64,000 bases of DNA from Duncaniella sp. (lineage in GTDB: Bacteria; Bacteroidota; Bacteroidia; Bacteroidales; Muribaculaceae). The stretch spans positions 1 through 64,000 of the forward strand of contig JAIDUB010000081.1 of the NCBI GenBank assembly GCA_029060405.1, read 5' to 3'. This document shows, piece after piece, positions 4,187 to 37,290 of the stretch. How positions within the stretch are numbered: position 1 is the stretch's first letter; every line of letters begins with the position of its first letter. The notes under the pieces are model-generated. The model saw only the letters and a list, made by a program, of their open reading frames with translations, was not told where the DNA came from and did not search any database. The position numbers were made by a program, and so were the translations under genes.

Positions 4187-6367
4187 TTACATATTACGGT
4201 TGAAATAATCAAGCATCCGGGAGTAGACGTTAAGGCGGGCGTCGCATCCGTTGATGGAATGATTCATATTTGGATAAAGGAACATATCGCACATGCGTCC
4301 CGAAGCCTGAAGCTCCGACACATACTGCATGGTGTTGAAAAGATGCACGTTGTCATCGGCCGTTCCGTGCATGATCAGCAGCGGAACATTCATCTGCTCC
4401 ACCAGAGCTACGGGTGCCGAACTGTCGTAACCGTCGGCGTTCTGGGCCGGGGTGAGCATATATCGCTCGGCGTAAACCGTGTCGTAATACCGCCACGAGG
4501 TAACGGGAGCGATAGCTACTGCGGCCGCGAAAGGCGAGCCGGGTGCAGATATGGTCATGAGAGTCTGGTAACCGCCATAGCTCCAGCCTGTAATTCCCAT
4601 GCGCTTGGCATCGACATAGCTCTGCGAGGCAAAATGCCGTGCGGCTGCTATGAGGTCGGCGGCCTCATAGTGTCCAAGCTGCTTGTAGACGCATGTGGAG
4701 AAAGCGCGGTCGCGGCCACCCGTGCCACGGGGGTCGACACATACCACCACATATCCCTGCATGGCTGCATACTGAGGCCAGTCCATGCGCCAGCGGCATG
4801 TCACTTCCTGAGATTCGGGACCGCTGTATTGATTCATTATGACAGGATAACGCTTGGAAGCGTCGAAGTGTTGCGGACGGATGATATAAGCGTTAAGCAT
4901 CGTGCCGTCGGCACCCGGCACGGTGATGAATTCTTTCTGAGGCACCGATGCGTAGCGGGCCGCATAGTCAGCATTATCCTCCAATACCCTCACGCTTTTA
5001 CCCTTGACGTTGCAGAGGGTGTAGACGGGGGGAGTGGATGCCGTGCTGTGGTCGAGCACCATGTAGGTCATGCCGGGCGTGAAACGAGCCGATGCCCACC
5101 CTTCGTCGGGCGAAAGACGGGTTATTTTTCCTTTGGCGTCGACCGATTCCACTACGCGGTGAATTGCGCCGGCCGAGGTCGACTGATAGTAGACCGTTCC
5201 GGCCTCGCTGCCGTAGCAGGCCGTGACGTTGTAGTCGCCCGAAGTCACGGTGCGGGTGAGAGCACCGGAGTAATTATAGGCATACAGGTGATTATAGCCC
5301 GAGCGGGGTGATATGACCATGAATCCGTCGGGTGTGAGAGTGAGATTTTCATAGGATACCGACGGAATCCATGCGTCGGAGGTCTCGGTGAAGATTGACT
5401 TGGCCACACCCGAGCGAGGATTGACGGCTATCAGCTCCATGCGGCGCTGGTCGCGGTCGAGGGTCGTCACTATCACGCGCGCGGGGTCAAACGCATATGT
5501 CATGCGCGGAATATATTCGATATCGTTTCCGGGCAGGGTGATGTCCTTGTTTTTTCGAGTCTCAACATCATAGCTGTGGAGCGTGACCACGGAATTGGGC
5601 TGTCCCGCCACGGGATATTTGTAGGTATACGAGCCGGGATACAGCGCATATTGCGTCATGGGGTTGCAACTGCCTTCGTAGAGAGGAAACGACCACGCCG
5701 GCACTGATGTCTCGTCATATTTAAGATAACACAGCGTCAGATTGTCGGGAGCCCACGACATAGAGCAGTCGGTGGTAAATTCTTCCTCGTAGGTCCAGTC
5801 AGGCACACCGTTGATTATCGAGCCTGCTGCGCCGTCGCGTGTCACAGCCACCTCGGTCCCGTAATCGAGTTTCTTGAGATAGATATTATTGTCGTCGGCC
5901 ACGAACGCCACCATGCGGCCGTCGGGCGAGAAAAGCGGAGCCCGCTGTGTAGCGTGATCGTCGGAGAGCGGCGAGAGCATGCGGGTGCGGATCTCGTATA
6001 CGTAATACCGGGCCGTGAAGGAGCGGCGGTATATCATCTTCTTGTCAGTGTATACCATAATTTTCGAGCCGTCGGGGCTTAGCGTGAACCCTTCGATGCT
6101 CTTGAGCGTGTTGCCGCGGGTGTTGCCGAGATCCATTACGGTCTCCACCTCCTTACCGGTCTTGACATCGTAGCGCTTCACGGCTCTTGACTCAGGAGAA
6201 TAGGCGAGATAATTCAGTCCGTCGGGCTCAAAAGCCATGGCTTGAGGTGCTGCCGGTGTGTTGCCCGGATATACATATCGGGCCATATCGGCATCGACCT
6301 TCACGGCCGAAACCGCCGGTAGGCTTACGGCGGCAGCAGTGATTAGTGTAGTCAGTATTTTCTTCAT
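4187..6367 (-). CDS. S9 family peptidase (dipeptidyl peptidase IV-like)
   Basis: Signal peptide, beta-propeller-like N-terminus, GWSYGGYQTL nucleophile elbow and MHGTADDNVHLFNT near the C-terminus. Confidence 0.92.
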   Translation of the reverse strand: MKKILTTLITAAAVSLPAVSAVKVDADMARYVYPGNTPAAPQAMAFEPDGLNYLAYSPESRAVKRYDVKTGKEVETVMDLGNTRGNTLKSIEGFTLSPDGSKIMVYTDKKMIYRRSFTARYYVYEIRTRMLSPLSDDHATQRAPLFSPDGRMVAFVADDNNIYLKKLDYGTEVAVTRDGAAGSIINGVPDWTYEEEFTTDCSMSWAPDNLTLCYLKYDETSVPAWSFPLYEGSCNPMTQYALYPGSYTYKYPVAGQPNSVVTLHSYDVETRKNKDITLPGNDIEYIPRMTYAFDPARVIVTTLDRDQRRMELIAVNPRSGVAKSIFTETSDAWIPSVSYENLTLTPDGFMVISPRSGYNHLYAYNYSGALTRTVTSGDYNVTACYGSEAGTVYYQSTSAGAIHRVVESVDAKGKITRLSPDEGWASARFTPGMTYMVLDHSTASTPPVYTLCNVKGKSVRVLEDNADYAARYASVPQKEFITVPGADGTMLNAYIIRPQHFDASKRYPVIMNQYSGPESQEVTCRWRMDWPQYAAMQGYVVVCVDPRGTGGRDRAFSTCVYKQLGHYEAADLIAAARHFASQSYVDAKRMGITGWSYGGYQTLMTISAPGSPFAAAVAIAPVTSWRYYDTVYAERYMLTPAQNADGYDSSAPVALVEQMNVPLLIMHGTADDNVHLFNTMQYVSELQASGRMCDMFLYPNMNHSINGCDARLNVYSRMLDYFNRNM

Positions 6368-6389: not shown

Positions 6390-7748
6390 TCAGAATAATG
6401 ACAGCTGGGCGTCGTTTTCAGGCACCACGGGACGCTGAGGCTCATGATAGCCGAAATCGGGGTCGAATTTCCGCGGGCTCTCGGGCAGGTCGAGCCAGTC
6501 GGTACTGTCGAGATTGCCATCGATGGATTCGCGGCTTTTGCGTGGACGTCCGCGACGTTTGCGCGGAGCGGAGGCCGACGGTGCAGCCGGCTCGTCGATG
6601 AGTTTGGGAGCGGCCTCGGCCGAGCGGAGTTTCTCGATTGTGGAGTCGAGTTCGGCGCGAAGCTGCTTTATTTCCGAGCGGAGTTTCATCTCCGAGTTGG
6701 CCTGATTATACAGATTGGTCTCGATAGTGTGGGAGAGAGAGGCGTTTTCATCGCGCAGACGCATGATTTCCTCCTCAGCAGCCGACGTGTCAGGAACCGA
6801 CGCGGGAGTGTTTTCAATCTGCAGGGTAAGTTGCTTCACTTTCTCGGCGAGCTCGGTGATTTTCGCATCCTTGCGCTCCTTCACCTGCTCGAAAAGCTCG
6901 AGTTTTTCCTGAATTTCGGCAGCGATGGCCAGTTCAGCCTCGGCTTTCGACAGTTCCTCCTTAGCGCGCGAGGTCTCGGCCTGAAGATTATTGATCATGG
7001 TGTCGCTCATGGCAGCCTTTAGCTCAAGCTGCTCGTTGAGAGTGCGCTGCTTTGTAATCTCGGCGTCGAGCTCCTCCACCCGTGCTGAGAGGGCGGCCAC
7101 TTCACCGTTGAGACGCGAGATAGTTTCTTCTTTCTCTGCCATCTGCGGCGAGTCGGCCGGCACGCGCGGCTTGCGCGAGGTGATTATGCGCTCCTTCTCG
7201 GCCTTGACTTCGTTGAGGCGACGGTCAAGATCGGTGATCCGGTCAGTGAGGGCACGTTTCTGTCGGGCGGCGTCGGAGCGTATCTGTCGCATTTCCTCGC
7301 GGAGTGAGGTGGCTTCGTCCTTGGCATCGCTGAGTGTTTCGATGAGCTGCTGACGCTCGGCATCCTCTTCAGCCGATTGCGATTCGGGTGAGGCGCCGGC
7401 ACAGGCTGCCGCGATGCGTGCACGGAGCGAGGCGCTTATGTGGTCATAGATATATTTCCGCTGCGCCTCGGTATTGAGCGACTGTGATACAAATTCAGGC
7501 ATCGTGGAGTTAAACAGCTCAATCACTGCATCGAATAAGTCGCCGGGCAGATCGTCGGTCTTCACCTCGGGCCCTGCATCAGCATCGGGCGCGGCAGTAT
7601 CGGCTGCATCGGCGTGCGAAGCCGGAACTGTGTCCTCATCGTGACGCTCCACAGCGTAGGTGGGGACTGACGAATCATATTCATCCGTGTCCTCTTCCTC
7701 GCCGGGCGCGAAGCCGAAAGCCTGTTTTATTCCGTTCCAGAATGACAT
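6390..7748 (-). CDS. Coiled-coil protein of unknown function
   Basis: Long heptad-rich E/K/L segments; basic APRKRRGRPRKSRES motif near the C-terminus. Confidence 0.7.
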   Translation of the reverse strand: MSFWNGIKQAFGFAPGEEEDTDEYDSSVPTYAVERHDEDTVPASHADAADTAAPDADAGPEVKTDDLPGDLFDAVIELFNSTMPEFVSQSLNTEAQRKYIYDHISASLRARIAAACAGASPESQSAEEDAERQQLIETLSDAKDEATSLREEMRQIRSDAARQKRALTDRITDLDRRLNEVKAEKERIITSRKPRVPADSPQMAEKEETISRLNGEVAALSARVEELDAEITKQRTLNEQLELKAAMSDTMINNLQAETSRAKEELSKAEAELAIAAEIQEKLELFEQVKERKDAKITELAEKVKQLTLQIENTPASVPDTSAAEEEIMRLRDENASLSHTIETNLYNQANSEMKLRSEIKQLRAELDSTIEKLRSAEAAPKLIDEPAAPSASAPRKRRGRPRKSRESIDGNLDSTDWLDLPESPRKFDPDFGYHEPQRPVVPENDAQLSLF

Positions 7749-22336: not shown

Positions 22337-22741
22337 AACTAACTGAAAATTAATTAAAAAATAAAGTTGCCGTATAGACTCTCTGTCAGGCGTGTTATAG
22401 TATTGATTTGTAGGAAAATAGAATGCGTGAGAGCCGGTCACTTGATGTCCGTCCCACGTTCTGAGGCTCTGGTATGCCCGGTAAAGTAGAACGGACAACG
22501 CAGAGGCCTCACGCATATATGTATATAAGCACATCGCCGACTCTACGTTCACACGCAGTGGTCGGGGGATGTAGGTATATACAACCGCATGGGCATCTAC
22601 CGCTGCCTCATTCTTGACCTTACCAAAGAAATTTACCAGATTTCAGAACGTCAAGAAAGAGCGTCGAGTAAATACGCCTTCTAAGTATGTCATGCTATCT
22701 GCCCGCCCGCCCCTTGTTGAGGCCTCTGCGTGCAGTAAGCT
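22337..22741 (-). ncRNA. Candidate structured leader RNA upstream of the BspA-like gene
   Basis: On the minus strand: 13-bp stem 22719-22731/22498-22510; hairpin 22650-22657/22611-22618 (8 bp); nested hairpin closed by gtatata/tatatac (22576-22582/22521-22527) and capped by ctgcgt-GTGA-acgtag (GNRA loop); 3' domain gcgtgaggcc/ggctctcacgc (22505-22514/22425-22435) enclosing tgtccg/cggaca and gttct/agaac. Confidence 0.55.
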
Positions 22742-31720: not shown

Positions 31721-32626
31721 ATGGCAAATCTTGAAGTAAAACTCGGTCAGCTGACCATGAAGAATCCCGTAGCCACGGCGTCGGGAACATTCGGCTACGG
31801 AGAGGAATATGCTCCTTTTATTGACCTGTCGCGTCTGGGGGCGTATATAGTTAAAGGCACCACGCTTCTGCCCCGCGAGGGCAACCCTTATCCGCGCATG
31901 GTGGAGACTCCTTCGGGTATGCTGAATGCCGTGGGGCTGCAAAACAAGGGCGTGGATTATTTTATCGAGCATATCTATCCGCGTATCAAGGAGATAGATT
32001 CACACATGATAGTTAATGTGTCAGGTTCGCGTGTGGATGACTACGTTGAGACCGCCCGCCGCCTTGCCCCTCTTGATGGCGTGGCTGCCATCGAGGTCAA
32101 TATCTCGTGTCCTAACGTGAAGGAAGGCGGTATGGCATTCGTTCCCACATGCGAGGGCGCTGCTGAAGTCACTGCTGCGGTACGCAAGGCATTCCCGCGT
32201 GAAATGATTGTGAAGCTGTCGCCTAATGTCACGAGCATCGCCGATATCGCCCGCGCTGTCGAAGCCGAGGGCGCCGACTCGGTTTCGCTCATCAACACTC
32301 TCATGGGTATGGCTATCGATACGGAGCGCCGCCGTCCTTATCTGTCGACCGTTACCGGCGGATTGTCGGGGGCTGCCGTGCGTCCCGTCGCTGTAAGAAT
32401 GGTATGGCAGGTGAAAAAAGCGGTGAAAATTCCGGTGATAGGTCTGGGAGGTATCATGAACGGACGCGATGCCATTGAATTCATGCTTGCCGGCGCTACA
32501 GCGGTGCAGGTAGGTACAGCCAATTTTATCGATCCGGCAGTTACGGTTAAAATCGTTGACTATATCGATGACTGGTGCTCCCGCCACGGCGTTGCCGATA
32601 TCAATGAAATCGTGGGGGAAATCTGA
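31721..32626 (+). CDS. pyrD: Dihydroorotate dehydrogenase, intact copy
   Basis: [72 protein letters not shown]. Confidence 0.96.
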
Positions 32627-32680
32627 TGATTAATGATTAATGATTCATGATTCATGATTCACGATTCATGATTAATGATT
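32627..32680 (+). repeat. GATTCAT/GATTAAT heptamer array after pyrD copy 1
   Basis: gattaatgattaatgattcatgattcatgattcacgattcatgattaatgatt. Confidence 0.9.
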
Positions 32681-32682
32681 TT

Positions 32683-32720
32683 CAATGGAGAATTACGGCA
32701 TGCGTCGTATTTCTCCATTT
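32683..32720 (+). terminator. Hairpin downstream of pyrD copy 1 (probable terminator)
   Basis: caatggagaattacggcatgcgtcgtatttctccatttcc, imperfect stem aatggagaa/ttctccatt. Confidence 0.6.
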
Positions 32721-32787
32721 CCAACTACTAATCAGGATTTATTAGGGTAGCCTCAATCATTATTGATTAGTCAATAACATTCAATAC

Positions 32788-32826
32788 AAAAAGCGTACCA
32801 GAGAAATCCAGCACGCTTTTTGTTGT
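32788..32826. terminator. Intrinsic terminator at the cargo left end
   Basis: caaaaagcgt...acgctttttg, 10-bp stem with A/T tracts on both sides. Confidence 0.75.
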
Positions 32827-32855
32827 CTTGGGCAGAATGTAGGTTATACTATACG

Positions 32856-33092: not shown

Positions 33093-34145
33093 TTAAACAT
33101 TGAGTTGGTATGTATCTGAGATGCGTTCCCAAACACACATATTCTTTTCTTTGGTAAGTTGCGGATTGATTTTGAAGACACCTACGAAATTATAGGCTGG
33201 CAGTACACCATAAGCCATTTCTTTCATAAAGGTTATGCGCTTTTGGTTGGAATTGATCCACTGTGCTATATGTTTCGAGCGTTCTTCTTCGGAACGTTTG
33301 TTGTATTCATAAATGTAGCGTCCGTCTTTGGATAATTCATTGTGCCATGTTCGGTGATTGGGTTGCGGCCACCACACAATTTCATCTTTCTTATTAGGAA
33401 CAGCAACTGAACTTACACGAAGATAGCCACGATGTTTTGGTTTGGTACCGAATACCGCTGCAATATCATCAATTGTGGTTAGCCAATCTTCGGAATTTAC
33501 CGAGAAAAAGCCACGTGATTTGTAATATTCGGGTGTTGAGCGAGTAATTGAGTAGTCACAAGGAAGAAAGCGCTCCCCGAGAGCGGAAATACGTCTACGA
33601 ATTTCTGCAACAACTTCATCAACCTGTTTATGGATTTCCTCTAAACTCCCCGATGCTTTGATTACGAATACATCAGCATTGGTCGCATCTGCCACTTCTT
33701 GATTACGGATAGCGTCCTTCGCTTTCTGTGTTTCTTCTTCGTGATACCCCTCGTTTACCTCTATTATCATGCCTACTTGTGGAAGATAGAGGTCCGCGAA
33801 AGCATACCCATCCTTACGTTTGACATATTGCTGGAGTACGAAACGCACACGCATATCGTCAAGTTTATGCCATATCCGATTAATGACATAGGATTCTGTT
33901 GCTTTGTTGGCTATTTTAGCCAACATGTTGGTGATTATTATTCTTTGAAAGTTCATATCTCTTTGGTTTATACCTACACACGAAAAAAGAGCGACAGCCA
34001 AAACTTTTTCCTCATTTGCTTTCGTAGGTTCTGGTAAACCTTTTGCCCAAATAAGTAAAAAGCAGTCTGCGCCCTTGTCGGGTACAAACCAACATTTTGA
34101 CTTATTATTTGGGGCTTTGAAATTTACCAGATTTACGAAAGCCAA
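33093..34145 (-). CDS. Putative PD-(D/E)XK (Vsr/DUF559-like) nuclease, possibly a PvuRts1I/AbaSI-like modification-dependent restriction enzyme
   Basis: TESYVINRIWHKLDDMRVRFVLQQYVKRKDGYAFADLYLPQVGMIIEVNEGYHEEETQKAKDAIRNQEVADATNADVFVIKAS matches the D...ExNxGxH...D..R layout of Vsr/DUF559-type nucleases. A separate C-terminal domain ends AYNFVGVFKINPQLTKEKNMCVWERISDTYQL. Alternative start at Met64 (33956) gives 287 aa. Confidence 0.65.
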   Translation of the reverse strand: MAFVNLVNFKAPNNKSKCWFVPDKGADCFLLIWAKGLPEPTKANEEKVLAVALFSCVGINQRDMNFQRIIITNMLAKIANKATESYVINRIWHKLDDMRVRFVLQQYVKRKDGYAFADLYLPQVGMIIEVNEGYHEEETQKAKDAIRNQEVADATNADVFVIKASGSLEEIHKQVDEVVAEIRRRISALGERFLPCDYSITRSTPEYYKSRGFFSVNSEDWLTTIDDIAAVFGTKPKHRGYLRVSSVAVPNKKDEIVWWPQPNHRTWHNELSKDGRYIYEYNKRSEEERSKHIAQWINSNQKRITFMKEMAYGVLPAYNFVGVFKINPQLTKEKNMCVWERISDTYQLNV

Positions 34146-34163
34146 ATAACTTGTCTAAAAGTT

Positions 34164-34310
34164 ATGTTTGAAATATGTCTTGTTTCAGTCTTTCTGTTTC
34201 TTGCTTCAGCGGTTTTAAGTTTTACTATTCGCAAAATAAGCAAAAATTTCGGAAATATGCAAGAGCATATCGCAGAACTGCCTAAAAAATTGGATGTTGC
34301 CTCATCATAA
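34164..34310 (+). CDS. Putative 48-aa single-pass membrane peptide
   Basis: My translation: MFEICLVSVFLFLASAVLSFTIRKISKNFGNMQEHIAELPKKLDVASS. Begins just upstream of the divergent nuclease ORF and is followed by a terminator. Confidence 0.45.
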   Translation: MFEICLVSVFLFLASAVLSFTIRKISKNFGNMQEHIAELPKKLDVASS

Positions 34311-34361: not shown

Positions 34362-34793
34362 TTAGGATAGTTGAGTATAATCGGGCATAGGAGTTTTCGG
34401 TGGTATTTTAGCACCGGAATTATTCCTATTCCATGTTTTAATTAGATATTGCCAGTTACTCTCTCCGTCTTCATATTTCTTAAGGAAATCTATTAGAGCT
34501 TTTACTTCTCGAGAATTTAATTTATCGGTATATTTACCACCATGTGGGAAATATTCCGGTGTTAAAATTTTCACTGCAATTTCGACAGTAGAATTTTGAG
34601 GGTAGTTACCCGAATCTGAAATATGAAAATGTGGGATATTTCCACCATCATTCATCCAAATGTATATGTAGAGATTATTGAAACGACCAATCTTTGCCAT
34701 TTCAAACAGCCTATCATCATTGGAATTATGTATGTCTAATGACTCAGCGAGCATATTATATAAAAGATATTCATCAAAATTCATTTTATCCAT
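34362..34793 (-). CDS. Hypothetical protein with DUF4160-like PHFH motif (143 aa)
   Basis: MAKIGRFNNLYIYIWMNDGGNIPHFHISDSG resembles the PHFHh core of DUF4160-type small proteins. Confidence 0.6.
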   Translation of the reverse strand: MDKMNFDEYLLYNMLAESLDIHNSNDDRLFEMAKIGRFNNLYIYIWMNDGGNIPHFHISDSGNYPQNSTVEIAVKILTPEYFPHGGKYTDKLNSREVKALIDFLKKYEDGESNWQYLIKTWNRNNSGAKIPPKTPMPDYTQLS

Positions 34794-34871: not shown

Positions 34872-34984
34872 TTAAAAATATCTTAGACCCATGCTTTCGC
34901 ACTCTTTTCGATATTCTTTGTCTTGCTGTCGAGATATGAGTTGCTCCACAAAAGCAGGTTTCAAGCAGATTTGGTCTGCGGCTT
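34872..34984 (-). pseudogene. Possible 3' remnant of an ORF truncated at the pyrD copy-2 junction
   Basis: Open frame ending ...AADQICLKPAFVEQLISRQQDKEYRKECESMGLRYF*; no start codon before the pyrD homology and an in-frame stop shortly beyond. Confidence 0.35.
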
Positions 34985-35773
34985 GGGGCGTATATAGTTG
35001 AAGAAACTACGCTTCTGTCCCGCGAGGGTAACCCTTATCCGCGCATGGTGGAGACTCCTTCGGGTATGCTTAATGCCGTGGGGCTGCAAAACAAGGGCGT
35101 GGATTATTTTATCGAGCATATCTTTCCGCGTATCAAGGAGATAGATTCACGCATGATAGTTAATGTGTCGGGTTCGCGTGTGGATGACTACGTGGAGACC
35201 GCCCGCCGCCTTGCCCCTCTTGATGGCGTGGCTGCCATCGAGGTCAATATCTCGTGTCCTAACGTGAAGGAAGGCGGTATGGCATTCGTTCCCACATGCG
35301 AGGGCGCTGCTGAAGTCACTGCTGCGGTACGCAAGGCATTCCCGCGTGAAATGATTGTGAAGCTGTCGCCTAATGTCACGAGCATCGCCGATATCGCCCG
35401 CGCTGTCGAAGCCGAGGGCGCCGACTCGGTTTCGCTCATCAACACTCTCATGGGTATGGCTATCGATACGGAGCGCCGCCGTCCTTATCTGTCGACCGTT
35501 ACCGGCGGATTGTCGGGGGCTGCCGTGCGTCCCGTCGCTGTAAGAATGGTATGGCAGGTGAAAAAAGCGGTGAAAATTCCGGTGATAGGTCTGGGAGGTA
35601 TCATGAACGGACGCGATGCCATTGAATTCATGCTTGCCGGCGCTACAGCGGTGCAGGTAGGTACAGCCAATTTTATCGATCCGGCAGTTACGGTTAAAAT
35701 CGTTGACTATATCGATGACTGGTGCTCCCGCCACGGCGTTGCCGATATCAATGAAATCGTGGGGGAAATCTGA
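34985..35773 (+). pseudogene. pyrD: 5'-truncated pyrD copy (lacks about the first 40 codons)
   Basis: Near-identical to residues 41-301 of the intact PyrD; no N-terminus and no upstream pyrK. Confidence 0.9.
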
Positions 35774-35848
35774 TGATTCATGATTCATGATTCATGATTA
35801 ACGATTCATGATTAACGATTCATGATTAATGATTATCGATTAATGATT
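35774..35848 (+). repeat. GATTCAT/GATTAAC/GATTAAT heptamer array after pyrD copy 2
   Basis: gattcatgattcatgattcatgattaacgattcatgattaacgattcatgattaatgattatcgattaatgatt. Confidence 0.9.
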
Positions 35849-35850
35849 TT

Positions 35851-35890
35851 CAATGGAGAATTACGACGCATGCCGTAATTCTCCATTTTT
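35851..35890 (+). terminator. Hairpin downstream of pyrD copy 2
   Basis: caatggagaattacgacgcatgccgtaattctccattttt, long near-perfect stem followed by T-rich sequence. Confidence 0.75.
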
Positions 35891-36014
35891 AACTACTAAT
35901 CAGGATTTTGCGCATAAATTGGTTGCTGCCAAAAGCCTTCTGAATTCTCGAGCGTTCCCTTTGCGAACGTCACAATGCGTCCTTCCCGGACTCGAGAGGG
36001 ATATGTGTAGCTTT

Positions 36015-36082: not shown

Positions 36083-36120
36083 GATTAAGGATTAATCGTT
36101 AATCATGAATCATTAATCAT
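36083..36120 (-). repeat. Short GATTAAT/GATTCAT heptamer array abutting the 3' end of the alcohol dehydrogenase gene
   Basis: Minus strand: aaatgattaatgattcatgattaacgattaatccttaatctt. Confidence 0.85.
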
Positions 36121-37290
36121 TTAAAGGGTGAGCTGATAGATGATGCGGGTCTCGGTGGGAGTGAGGGGGTAGTAGCCGCCAATCACGCCACCTTTGTTTT
36201 TGTGCAGACGCTCCACGAGTTGATCAATATCAGGCTCAGTTATGCCTAATTCATCCATAGTCACGGGCATGCCGAGGCTCTTGAAAAACGTTTTGAGTTT
36301 CATCACGCCCTCCATGGCAGCCTTTTGGTCATCATCTTCTTTTACACCCCATATGCGGCGCGCGAGTTGGGCTCCTTTTTCGGGATGATTCTTGGCCATG
36401 AACGTCATCCACGCGGGGAATACAACCGCCAGCCCGGCACCGTGAGCCACATCATAAAGGGCACTGATTTCATGCTCCATAGCGTGAGAAGCCCAGTCCT
36501 CCTTGCGGCCTGTTCCACACACACCGTTGTGAGCCAGAGTTCCGCTCCACATTATATTGGCACGGGCGTCATAATCGGCAGGATCAGCCATCACCTTAGG
36601 CGCTTCCTCGATTATCGCCATAAGCACGCCTTCGGCCACACGGTCGGTAATCTCCACACAAGGAGTGTCGGAGAAATAGCGCTCGAAGATATGCGCCATC
36701 ATGTCGACTATACCGCAAGCCGTCTGATAAGGCGGGAGAGTGAAAGTTAATTCAGGATTCATCAGCGCGAATTTCGGGCGCAGAGCCACCTCGGTGCGGA
36801 TCGAGATTTTAACCTTGCCGTCGATTTTGGTGATGACGGAATTACCCGAGCCCTCGCTGCCGGCAGCAGGGATGGTGAGTATTACGCCGAGCGGCAGGGT
36901 CTCACCAATCACAGCCTTACCCTCGAAGAAATCCCAGAAGTCGCCATCGTAGGGCACGCCTGCGGCAATAGCCTTGGCCGTGTCAATCACACTGCCTCCG
37001 CCCACAGCAAGCAGAGCGTCAAGCCCCTCGGTACGCATCAGGTCGATACCCTCGCGCACCTTGTCGTCGGTGGGATTGGGTCGCACACCTCCAAGCTCTT
37101 TCCACTCCACGCCTGCCTCGGCAAGCGAAGCGCGCACCTTAGCGAGCAGACCCGAAGCCTCGGCCGAACGACCGCCGTAAACCATCAATACCTTGCGGCC
37201 GAGCATTGAGGTGGTAAGCGCGCCGGCCTGCATCTCCACGCCGCGTCCGAACACATATTTCGTCGGAGTCCAGAAAGTGAAATTTTCCAT
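36121..37290 (-). CDS. Iron-containing alcohol dehydrogenase (BDH-like)
   Basis: MENFTFWTPTKYVFGRGVE, LLAVGGGSVIDTAKAIAAG, HAMEHEISALYDVAHGAGLAVVFPAW. Confidence 0.93.
   Translation of the reverse strand: MENFTFWTPTKYVFGRGVEMQAGALTTSMLGRKVLMVYGGRSAEASGLLAKVRASLAEAGVEWKELGGVRPNPTDDKVREGIDLMRTEGLDALLAVGGGSVIDTAKAIAAGVPYDGDFWDFFEGKAVIGETLPLGVILTIPAAGSEGSGNSVITKIDGKVKISIRTEVALRPKFALMNPELTFTLPPYQTACGIVDMMAHIFERYFSDTPCVEITDRVAEGVLMAIIEEAPKVMADPADYDARANIMWSGTLAHNGVCGTGRKEDWASHAMEHEISALYDVAHGAGLAVVFPAWMTFMAKNHPEKGAQLARRIWGVKEDDDQKAAMEGVMKLKTFFKSLGMPVTMDELGITEPDIDQLVERLHKNKGGVIGGYYPLTPTETRIIYQLTL

Follow-up and report, generated by a model that had tools for sequence, protein, structure and literature searches.

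A PvuRts1I/AbaSI-family nuclease gene in an IS1595-derived transposon fragment of Duncaniella sp., preceded by a covarying leader RNA proposed to be a transcription attenuator

The stretch of Duncaniella sp. DNA analysed here (contig JAIDUB010000081.1, positions 1 to 64,000; hereafter the window, 64,000 nucleotides in all) carries an insert placed between pyrD and adh. An ORF on the minus strand of this insert, at 33093–34145, runs for 350 codons from a TTG or for 287 codons from an internal ATG at 33956, and both the ORF and the segments quoted from it in an earlier note, made from the letters alone, are present there. The nuclease gene that it contains is found in a single copy in the 2.56-Mb draft assembly. 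The features of the locus are as follows.

31831–32740, plus strand: left copy of a direct repeat of ~0.9 kb, made up of the 3′ part of an intact pyrD (31721–32626) and a terminator
32763–32830, minus strand: conserved tail of the transposon's cargo, resembling a terminator (AAAAAGCGTGCTGG..GTACGCTTTTT), 93–94% identical in the relatives L002 and L003
32856–33074, minus strand: small downstream ORF, 72 aa, with no family in family searches
33093–33956, minus strand: gene for the predicted modification-dependent endonuclease of the PvuRts1I/AbaSI family (287 aa from its ATG)
33957–34145, minus strand: in-frame upstream extension (residues 1–63 of the 350-codon ORF), non-coding, part of the leader
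33983–33999, minus strand: GGCTGTCGCTC and then TTTTTT, the putative 3′ arm of the terminator (strand ‘4’ of the proposed attenuator), which is complementary to the apical hairpin in the 3′ strand of the latter
34011–34149, minus strand: main hairpin of the leader RNA (P1 – AAAUCUGGUAAAUUU – P3 – apical stem – UUACCAGAACCU – P1′), supported by covariation
34147–34164, minus strand: small 5′ hairpin (TAACTTTTAGACAAGTTA), strand ‘1’ of the proposed attenuator, supported by its pairing z
34362–34793, minus strand: upstream gene of the cargo, encoding 143 aa with a weak likeness to DUF4160 (PF13711, E 0.0017, below the gathering score)
34872–34975, minus strand: last ~35 codons of a transposase gene of the IS1595 family, aligning with the 3′ end of the L002 transposase
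34978–35908, plus strand: right copy of the direct repeat, made up of a 5′-truncated pyrD and a terminator, adjoining adh (36121–37290)

We place the start of the nuclease at Met64 (33956, giving 287 aa), as the earlier note had suggested, because the upstream 63-codon frame is disrupted in six relatives (L008–L013) and conservation falls off at the nuclease start codon. The 300 bp ahead of the ATG are 87–96% identical to those of loci in which the ORF DNA shares 63–67% and the nuclease protein 47% identity. Residues 1–63 at first appeared to match in relatives too, the cause being conserved DNA rather than conserved protein. We reject a 350-aa protein begun at the TTG, since relatives do not keep its frame open and the stretch forms a structured RNA, and the upstream region is read as a conserved non-coding module.

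This leader, which has the same orientation as the nuclease gene, folds with a z of −4.0 on the coding strand (33956–34300). An alignment of 11 sequences, built from divergent copies found by nucleotide search, contains 40 pairs with 95% of cells paired; 15 of these pairs have changed on both sides (6.5 in shuffles), and the covariation signal is abolished when the pairing partner is slid. In an alignment of 98 distinct sequences fitted to the structure, covariation supports 39 of the 40 pairs, with 901 double changes against 239 after shuffling and at most 171 when partners are slid. Covariation of the leader RNA is thus strongly supported. The near-invariant unpaired bases A27 and A28 and C311, C312 and U313 share one internal loop, and the next internal loop sets a nearly invariant AUUU opposite GG. 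Our first RNAalifold consensus was dropped, as it had missed the covarying long stem.

Among the Rfam families of Bacteroidota, Bacteroidales-1, Bacteroides-2, Flavo-1 and Bacteroid-trp resemble the leader in being leader or intergenic RNAs restricted to this phylum, but no Rfam 15 covariance model reached its gathering threshold in the window, and permissive scans gave chance-level matches only, none of them on the leader. The idea of a known RNA was set aside for want of an Rfam match. Literature searches on the sequence motif and on attenuators, whose coverage ended short of the supplementary candidate list of PMC8040213, yielded no description of the leader RNA. It is apparently an uncatalogued structured leader of Bacteroidota-wide occurrence, with the caveat that absence from Rfam and from the literature is not proof of novelty.

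Turning to the protein, Pfam places PvuRts1I-like_N (PF21598) at residues 9–120 (2.5e-31, score 109 against a cut-off of 27) and SRA (PF18491) at residues 144–285 (5.1e-32, above the gathering score), and finds both domains equally on the 350-aa form. The PD-(D/E)XK-like layout and separate C-terminal domain first seen in the letters are therefore real and well beyond chance. Among solved structures in the PDB, the best phmmer match is AbaSI (4.8e-30), followed by PvuRts1I (9e-21); PADLOC labels the protein a methyl-directed restriction enzyme, distant plasmid relatives carry the NCBI name ‘AbaSI family restriction endonuclease’, and NCBIfam gave no match for the nuclease. In the AlphaFold2 model (pLDDT 77) an SRA fold is predicted at the C-terminus, and Foldseek with this model finds AbaSI over its full length (1.2e-21), PvuRts1I (1.1e-17) and nothing else below 0.001. 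Whole-chain TM-scores are just 0.47–0.55, which we read as uncertain placement of the domains in the model.

Mutational studies of this family identified nuclease residues at which mutation causes loss of function, namely Lys17, Glu20, Asp57, Glu68, Glu71 and His74 (PMC4027163, PMC4157451). By alignment their equivalents here are K18, E21, D55, E66, E69 and H72, so that the catalytic residues are all in place, while the base-pocket residues Trp205, Pro207, Trp215, Asn217 and Glu228 correspond to W195, P197, W204, N206 and E217. All six catalytic and all five flipped-base pocket residues are invariant across 13 homologues. The assignment to the PvuRts1I/AbaSI family, offered at first from layout and size, is in this way borne out by sequence (Pfam, PDB, PADLOC), active site, pocket and fold. 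In domain order, length, loss-of-function nuclease residues and the five pocket residues the protein is like AbaSI and PvuRts1I; it differs in that structural alignments give ~24–29% identity, in that its gene is Bacteroidales transposon cargo with a structured leader, and in having Asn at the positions of Asp70 and Tyr210. The first of these, Asn68, is shared by this copy and most Bacteroidales relatives, with Asp kept in L004 and L014, and the D70A mutant of PvuRts1I retained some activity (PMC4157451). The second, Asn200, stands for a tyrosine of PvuRts1I that was reported as conserved and linked to hmC selectivity (PMC4157451), and lies in a rim loop shorter by one residue. Both positions are family-conserved yet do not define PvuRts1I/AbaSI, and the change at Tyr210 makes the exact base read by the predicted enzyme less certain. 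One could accordingly propose a family member that reads a modified base other than hmC or ghmC, in keeping with the loss of the selectivity-linked tyrosine and the shortened rim loop; with the whole Trp/Pro/Trp/Asn/Glu pocket kept, we regard this as possible but on the doubtful side. On its own the protein is an ordinary additional member of the PvuRts1I/AbaSI family, one that puts AbaSI-type enzymes on transposons of gut Bacteroidales and adds a clade in which the pocket rim has changed.

Relatives of the nuclease gene reside in IS1595-family transposons with inverted repeats of ~40 bp (ACGCGTCTATATACTTTCTTGTACCAATGGTTCTGTATAAT and variants) and 8-bp target duplications. A DDE_Tnp_IS1595 transposase was found in L002 and L016, the 331-aa enzyme of L002 matching the IS1595 family NF033547 at 5.2e-59 and PF12762 at 2.3e-36. 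Exact 8-bp duplications are present in L002 (TCCTTATA) and L006 (TAAATGAA); comparison of the flanks of L009, L010, L012 and L003 gave no matching target duplication. The copy in the window begins at 34975 with the ~35 terminal codons of the transposase gene, ends at 32763 with the conserved tail, and includes the 143-aa upstream cargo gene, which also occurs in L002. Transposon ends (terminal inverted repeats and an 8-bp duplication) are absent from the window copy and from the whole assembly, and the copy is an immobile transposon fragment, lacking ends and an intact transposase. In transposase family, inverted repeats and target duplications the relatives are like other IS1595-family transposons with passenger genes, but here the passenger is a modification-dependent nuclease gene preceded by a leader RNA, and the window copy is an end-less fragment. 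The earlier note had described a solitary defence gene. This holds in that the insert itself contains no methyltransferase, and so no cognate methylase; the transposon cargo and the conserved structured RNA ahead of the gene had been missed.

Two short derivatives, L151 (3155–6565, reverse strand) and L003 (4370–6670), have the leader and a PvuRts1I-like gene between inverted repeats with no transposase, and are probably non-autonomous elements. The L003 element lies near direct repeats of ~83 bp at 4287–4369 and 7049–7130. In L006, L009–L013 and L151 the nuclease gene is followed by a gene for a conserved protein of ~291 aa (MGILNNLINNIKDNFTMAEFNINGRMTVSSLRKQFKDAFG..), present in most full-length elements, for which no Pfam family was matched.

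An empty pyrD–adh junction is found in two same-genus genomes (L121 and L122). The two copies of the 0.9-kb pyrD repeat flanking the insert diverge at their outer parts only. Because the relatives examined there have IS1595 ends, and two of them also show ordinary target duplications of 8 bp, we treat the repeat as a local rearrangement or as an effect of assembly, the assembly being metagenome-like. The idea that restriction genes insert in a way of their own, with a long target duplication, was set aside since the ends of the examined relatives are IS1595 inverted repeats. Arrays of a 7/14-bp repeat (ATGATTAATGATTC..) follow pyrD at 32626–32681, 35775–35849 and 36083–36121; by blastn, this genome has about twenty intergenic stretches like them and a same-genus genome about thirty, and the array looks like a genus-specific intergenic repeat. 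The locus might also be a dead remnant, a broken transposon caught between two pyrD copies whose nuclease gene is disused or in part an assembly chimera. The truncated transposase, the missing ends, the pattern of divergence within the duplication and the multi-contig draft assembly fit such an account, but the nuclease ORF is intact with every catalytic and pocket residue and the leader of the window retains every helix, and we consider it unlikely.

The leader also occurs away from the nuclease loci. A covariance model of it matched 97 of 394 Bacteroidales genomes (66 of 207 genera) and 19 of 398 genomes in a sample spanning the phylum Bacteroidota, but none of 150 Bacillota genomes, and a nucleotide search of plasmids and phages did not find it. 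The genome of the window has six leader places, one of them a second in the window itself, at 22449–22658 on the minus strand (43 bits), ~110 nt upstream of a gene for a BspA-type leucine-rich-repeat surface protein. Of 87 non-redundant copies, 83 are followed by an ORF on their own strand and three by one on the opposite strand; the median distance is 79 nt, whereas upstream ORFs are oriented at random (33:27). What follows is diverse: proteins with BspA repeats or type IX secretion tails, lipoproteins, small helix-turn-helix proteins, and the products of DNA-defence genes. The last comprise three N6, two N6/N4 and one C5 methyltransferases, one HsdR-type domain and two PvuRts1I enzymes, a share of 9 in 82 downstream proteins provided that no protein matches two models. 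An ACATA motif stands 18–33 nt ahead of the hairpin in 48 of the 87 copies (~8 expected) and may be a promoter or pause element.

These copies bear on an alternative in which the protein is simply a family member and the upstream stretch is transposon DNA that does nothing as RNA and might, for instance, serve transposition by forming a hairpin in the DNA. At the PvuRts1I loci the leader is always within the transposon, and the stretch folds on both strands. Against this, the same structure precedes unrelated chromosomal genes in dozens of genera, the non-nuclease copies that we inspected (L152–L156) have no transposon inverted repeat, and the leader is oriented with its downstream gene; the reverse strand scores far lower (33 against 163 bits), and G–U pairs are frequent in the sense strand. 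We hold this explanation to be highly improbable.

The leader also has alternative partners. The U-run after the main hairpin falls within 45 nt in 77 of the 87 copies, compared with 16 for upstream and 20 for further downstream positions. The 3′ strand of the apical hairpin pairs with its own downstream arm at a mean of −17.6 kcal, against −12.7 kcal with permuted partners (z −16). At the site of the small 5′ hairpin TAACTTTTAGACAAGTTA, other copies have AAGCGTTAGCTT-type hairpins, and a 5′ hairpin of −2 kcal or better is found in 62 of 87 copies as opposed to 19 when shuffled. Numbering the upstream, apical-5′, apical-3′ and downstream strands 1 to 4, pairing z is −7.6 for 1:2, −19.3 for 2:3 and −15.9 for 3:4, with no signal for 1:3 (+3.4) or 2:4 (−1.7), in permutation tests where relatedness was reduced, by an 85% cut, rather than removed. 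Mutually exclusive 1:2, 2:3 and 3:4 pairings are the textbook layout of a transcription attenuator, and the leader shows it: a candidate antiterminator and a candidate terminator pairing that exclude each other, and a U-run ahead of the gene.

Folded alone, the 3′ half of the window leader forms a −30.5 kcal terminator with the U-run TTTTTT at the foot of its stem. Such 3′-half folds give the terminator pairing for 81 of 87 copies, though partners swapped between copies still average 66, so most of that count reflects the shared consensus. In equilibrium folds of the whole leader, the main hairpin forms in 86 of 87 copies and the terminator pairing in one, from which we infer the probable direction of the switch: read-through by default, with termination caused by a trigger on the 5′ half. 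The leader thereby resembles trp-type attenuators in its mutually exclusive pairings and terminal U-run, but differs from them in having no conserved leader peptide and in preceding genes with no common pathway. We reject attenuation by a leader peptide, as there is no consistent upstream ORF and 17 of 99 leaders have no ATG at all.

A hairpin followed by U's could instead belong to an independent small RNA that ends at a terminator of its own and sits before genes by chance. The U-run in 77 of the 87 copies agrees with this, and the ACATA motif and small upstream hairpin could mark its promoter. Here, however, the start codon follows the U-run after only ~25 nt, too short a gap for another promoter, a same-strand gene is nearly always next, and the arm that carries the U-run has no local partner, being complementary only to the apical 3′ strand. 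A small RNA is in our view quite improbable.

Our preferred explanation joins a type IV-like enzyme of the PvuRts1I/AbaSI family, its arrival as transposon cargo and an attenuator leader, and we give it a probability of roughly two in three. The protein would be a stand-alone modification-dependent (type IV-like) restriction enzyme whose SRA domain flips a modified cytosine of invading phage DNA into the Trp/Trp/Asn/Glu pocket, most likely hydroxymethyl- or glucosyl-hydroxymethylcytosine, and whose N-terminal nuclease domain cuts near the flipped base. Its gene would have come in as cargo of an IS1595-family transposon, and its expression is probably set by the 5′ leader RNA. With the long nested hairpin formed, RNA polymerase would read through into the gene. 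If the 5′ half of the hairpin were unfolded or taken up by another partner, the apical 3′ strand would be released to pair with the downstream arm and its U's, and transcription would stop ahead of the start codon.

The leader carries greater weight than the nuclease. Roughly one in four of the sampled Bacteroidales genomes has it, and it is common to restriction genes and genes for surface proteins. We see an even chance that it represents an undescribed, phylum-wide attenuator class of Bacteroidota, with several copies to a genome, by which accessory genes are controlled in response to one common signal or antitermination factor; the genes so controlled would be, at the same odds, those of surface and secreted proteins, DNA methyltransferases and the present anti-phage nuclease. 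If true, this would amount to a common control layer over genes deciding how Bacteroidales meet phages and hosts, and the leader alignment supplies exact strand-swap mutations. Very similar helix-turn-helix proteins of ~70 aa are encoded after the leader in L047, L052, L061, L077, L106, L112 and L113, at a spacing of 5–70 nt, and are possible regulators tied to it.
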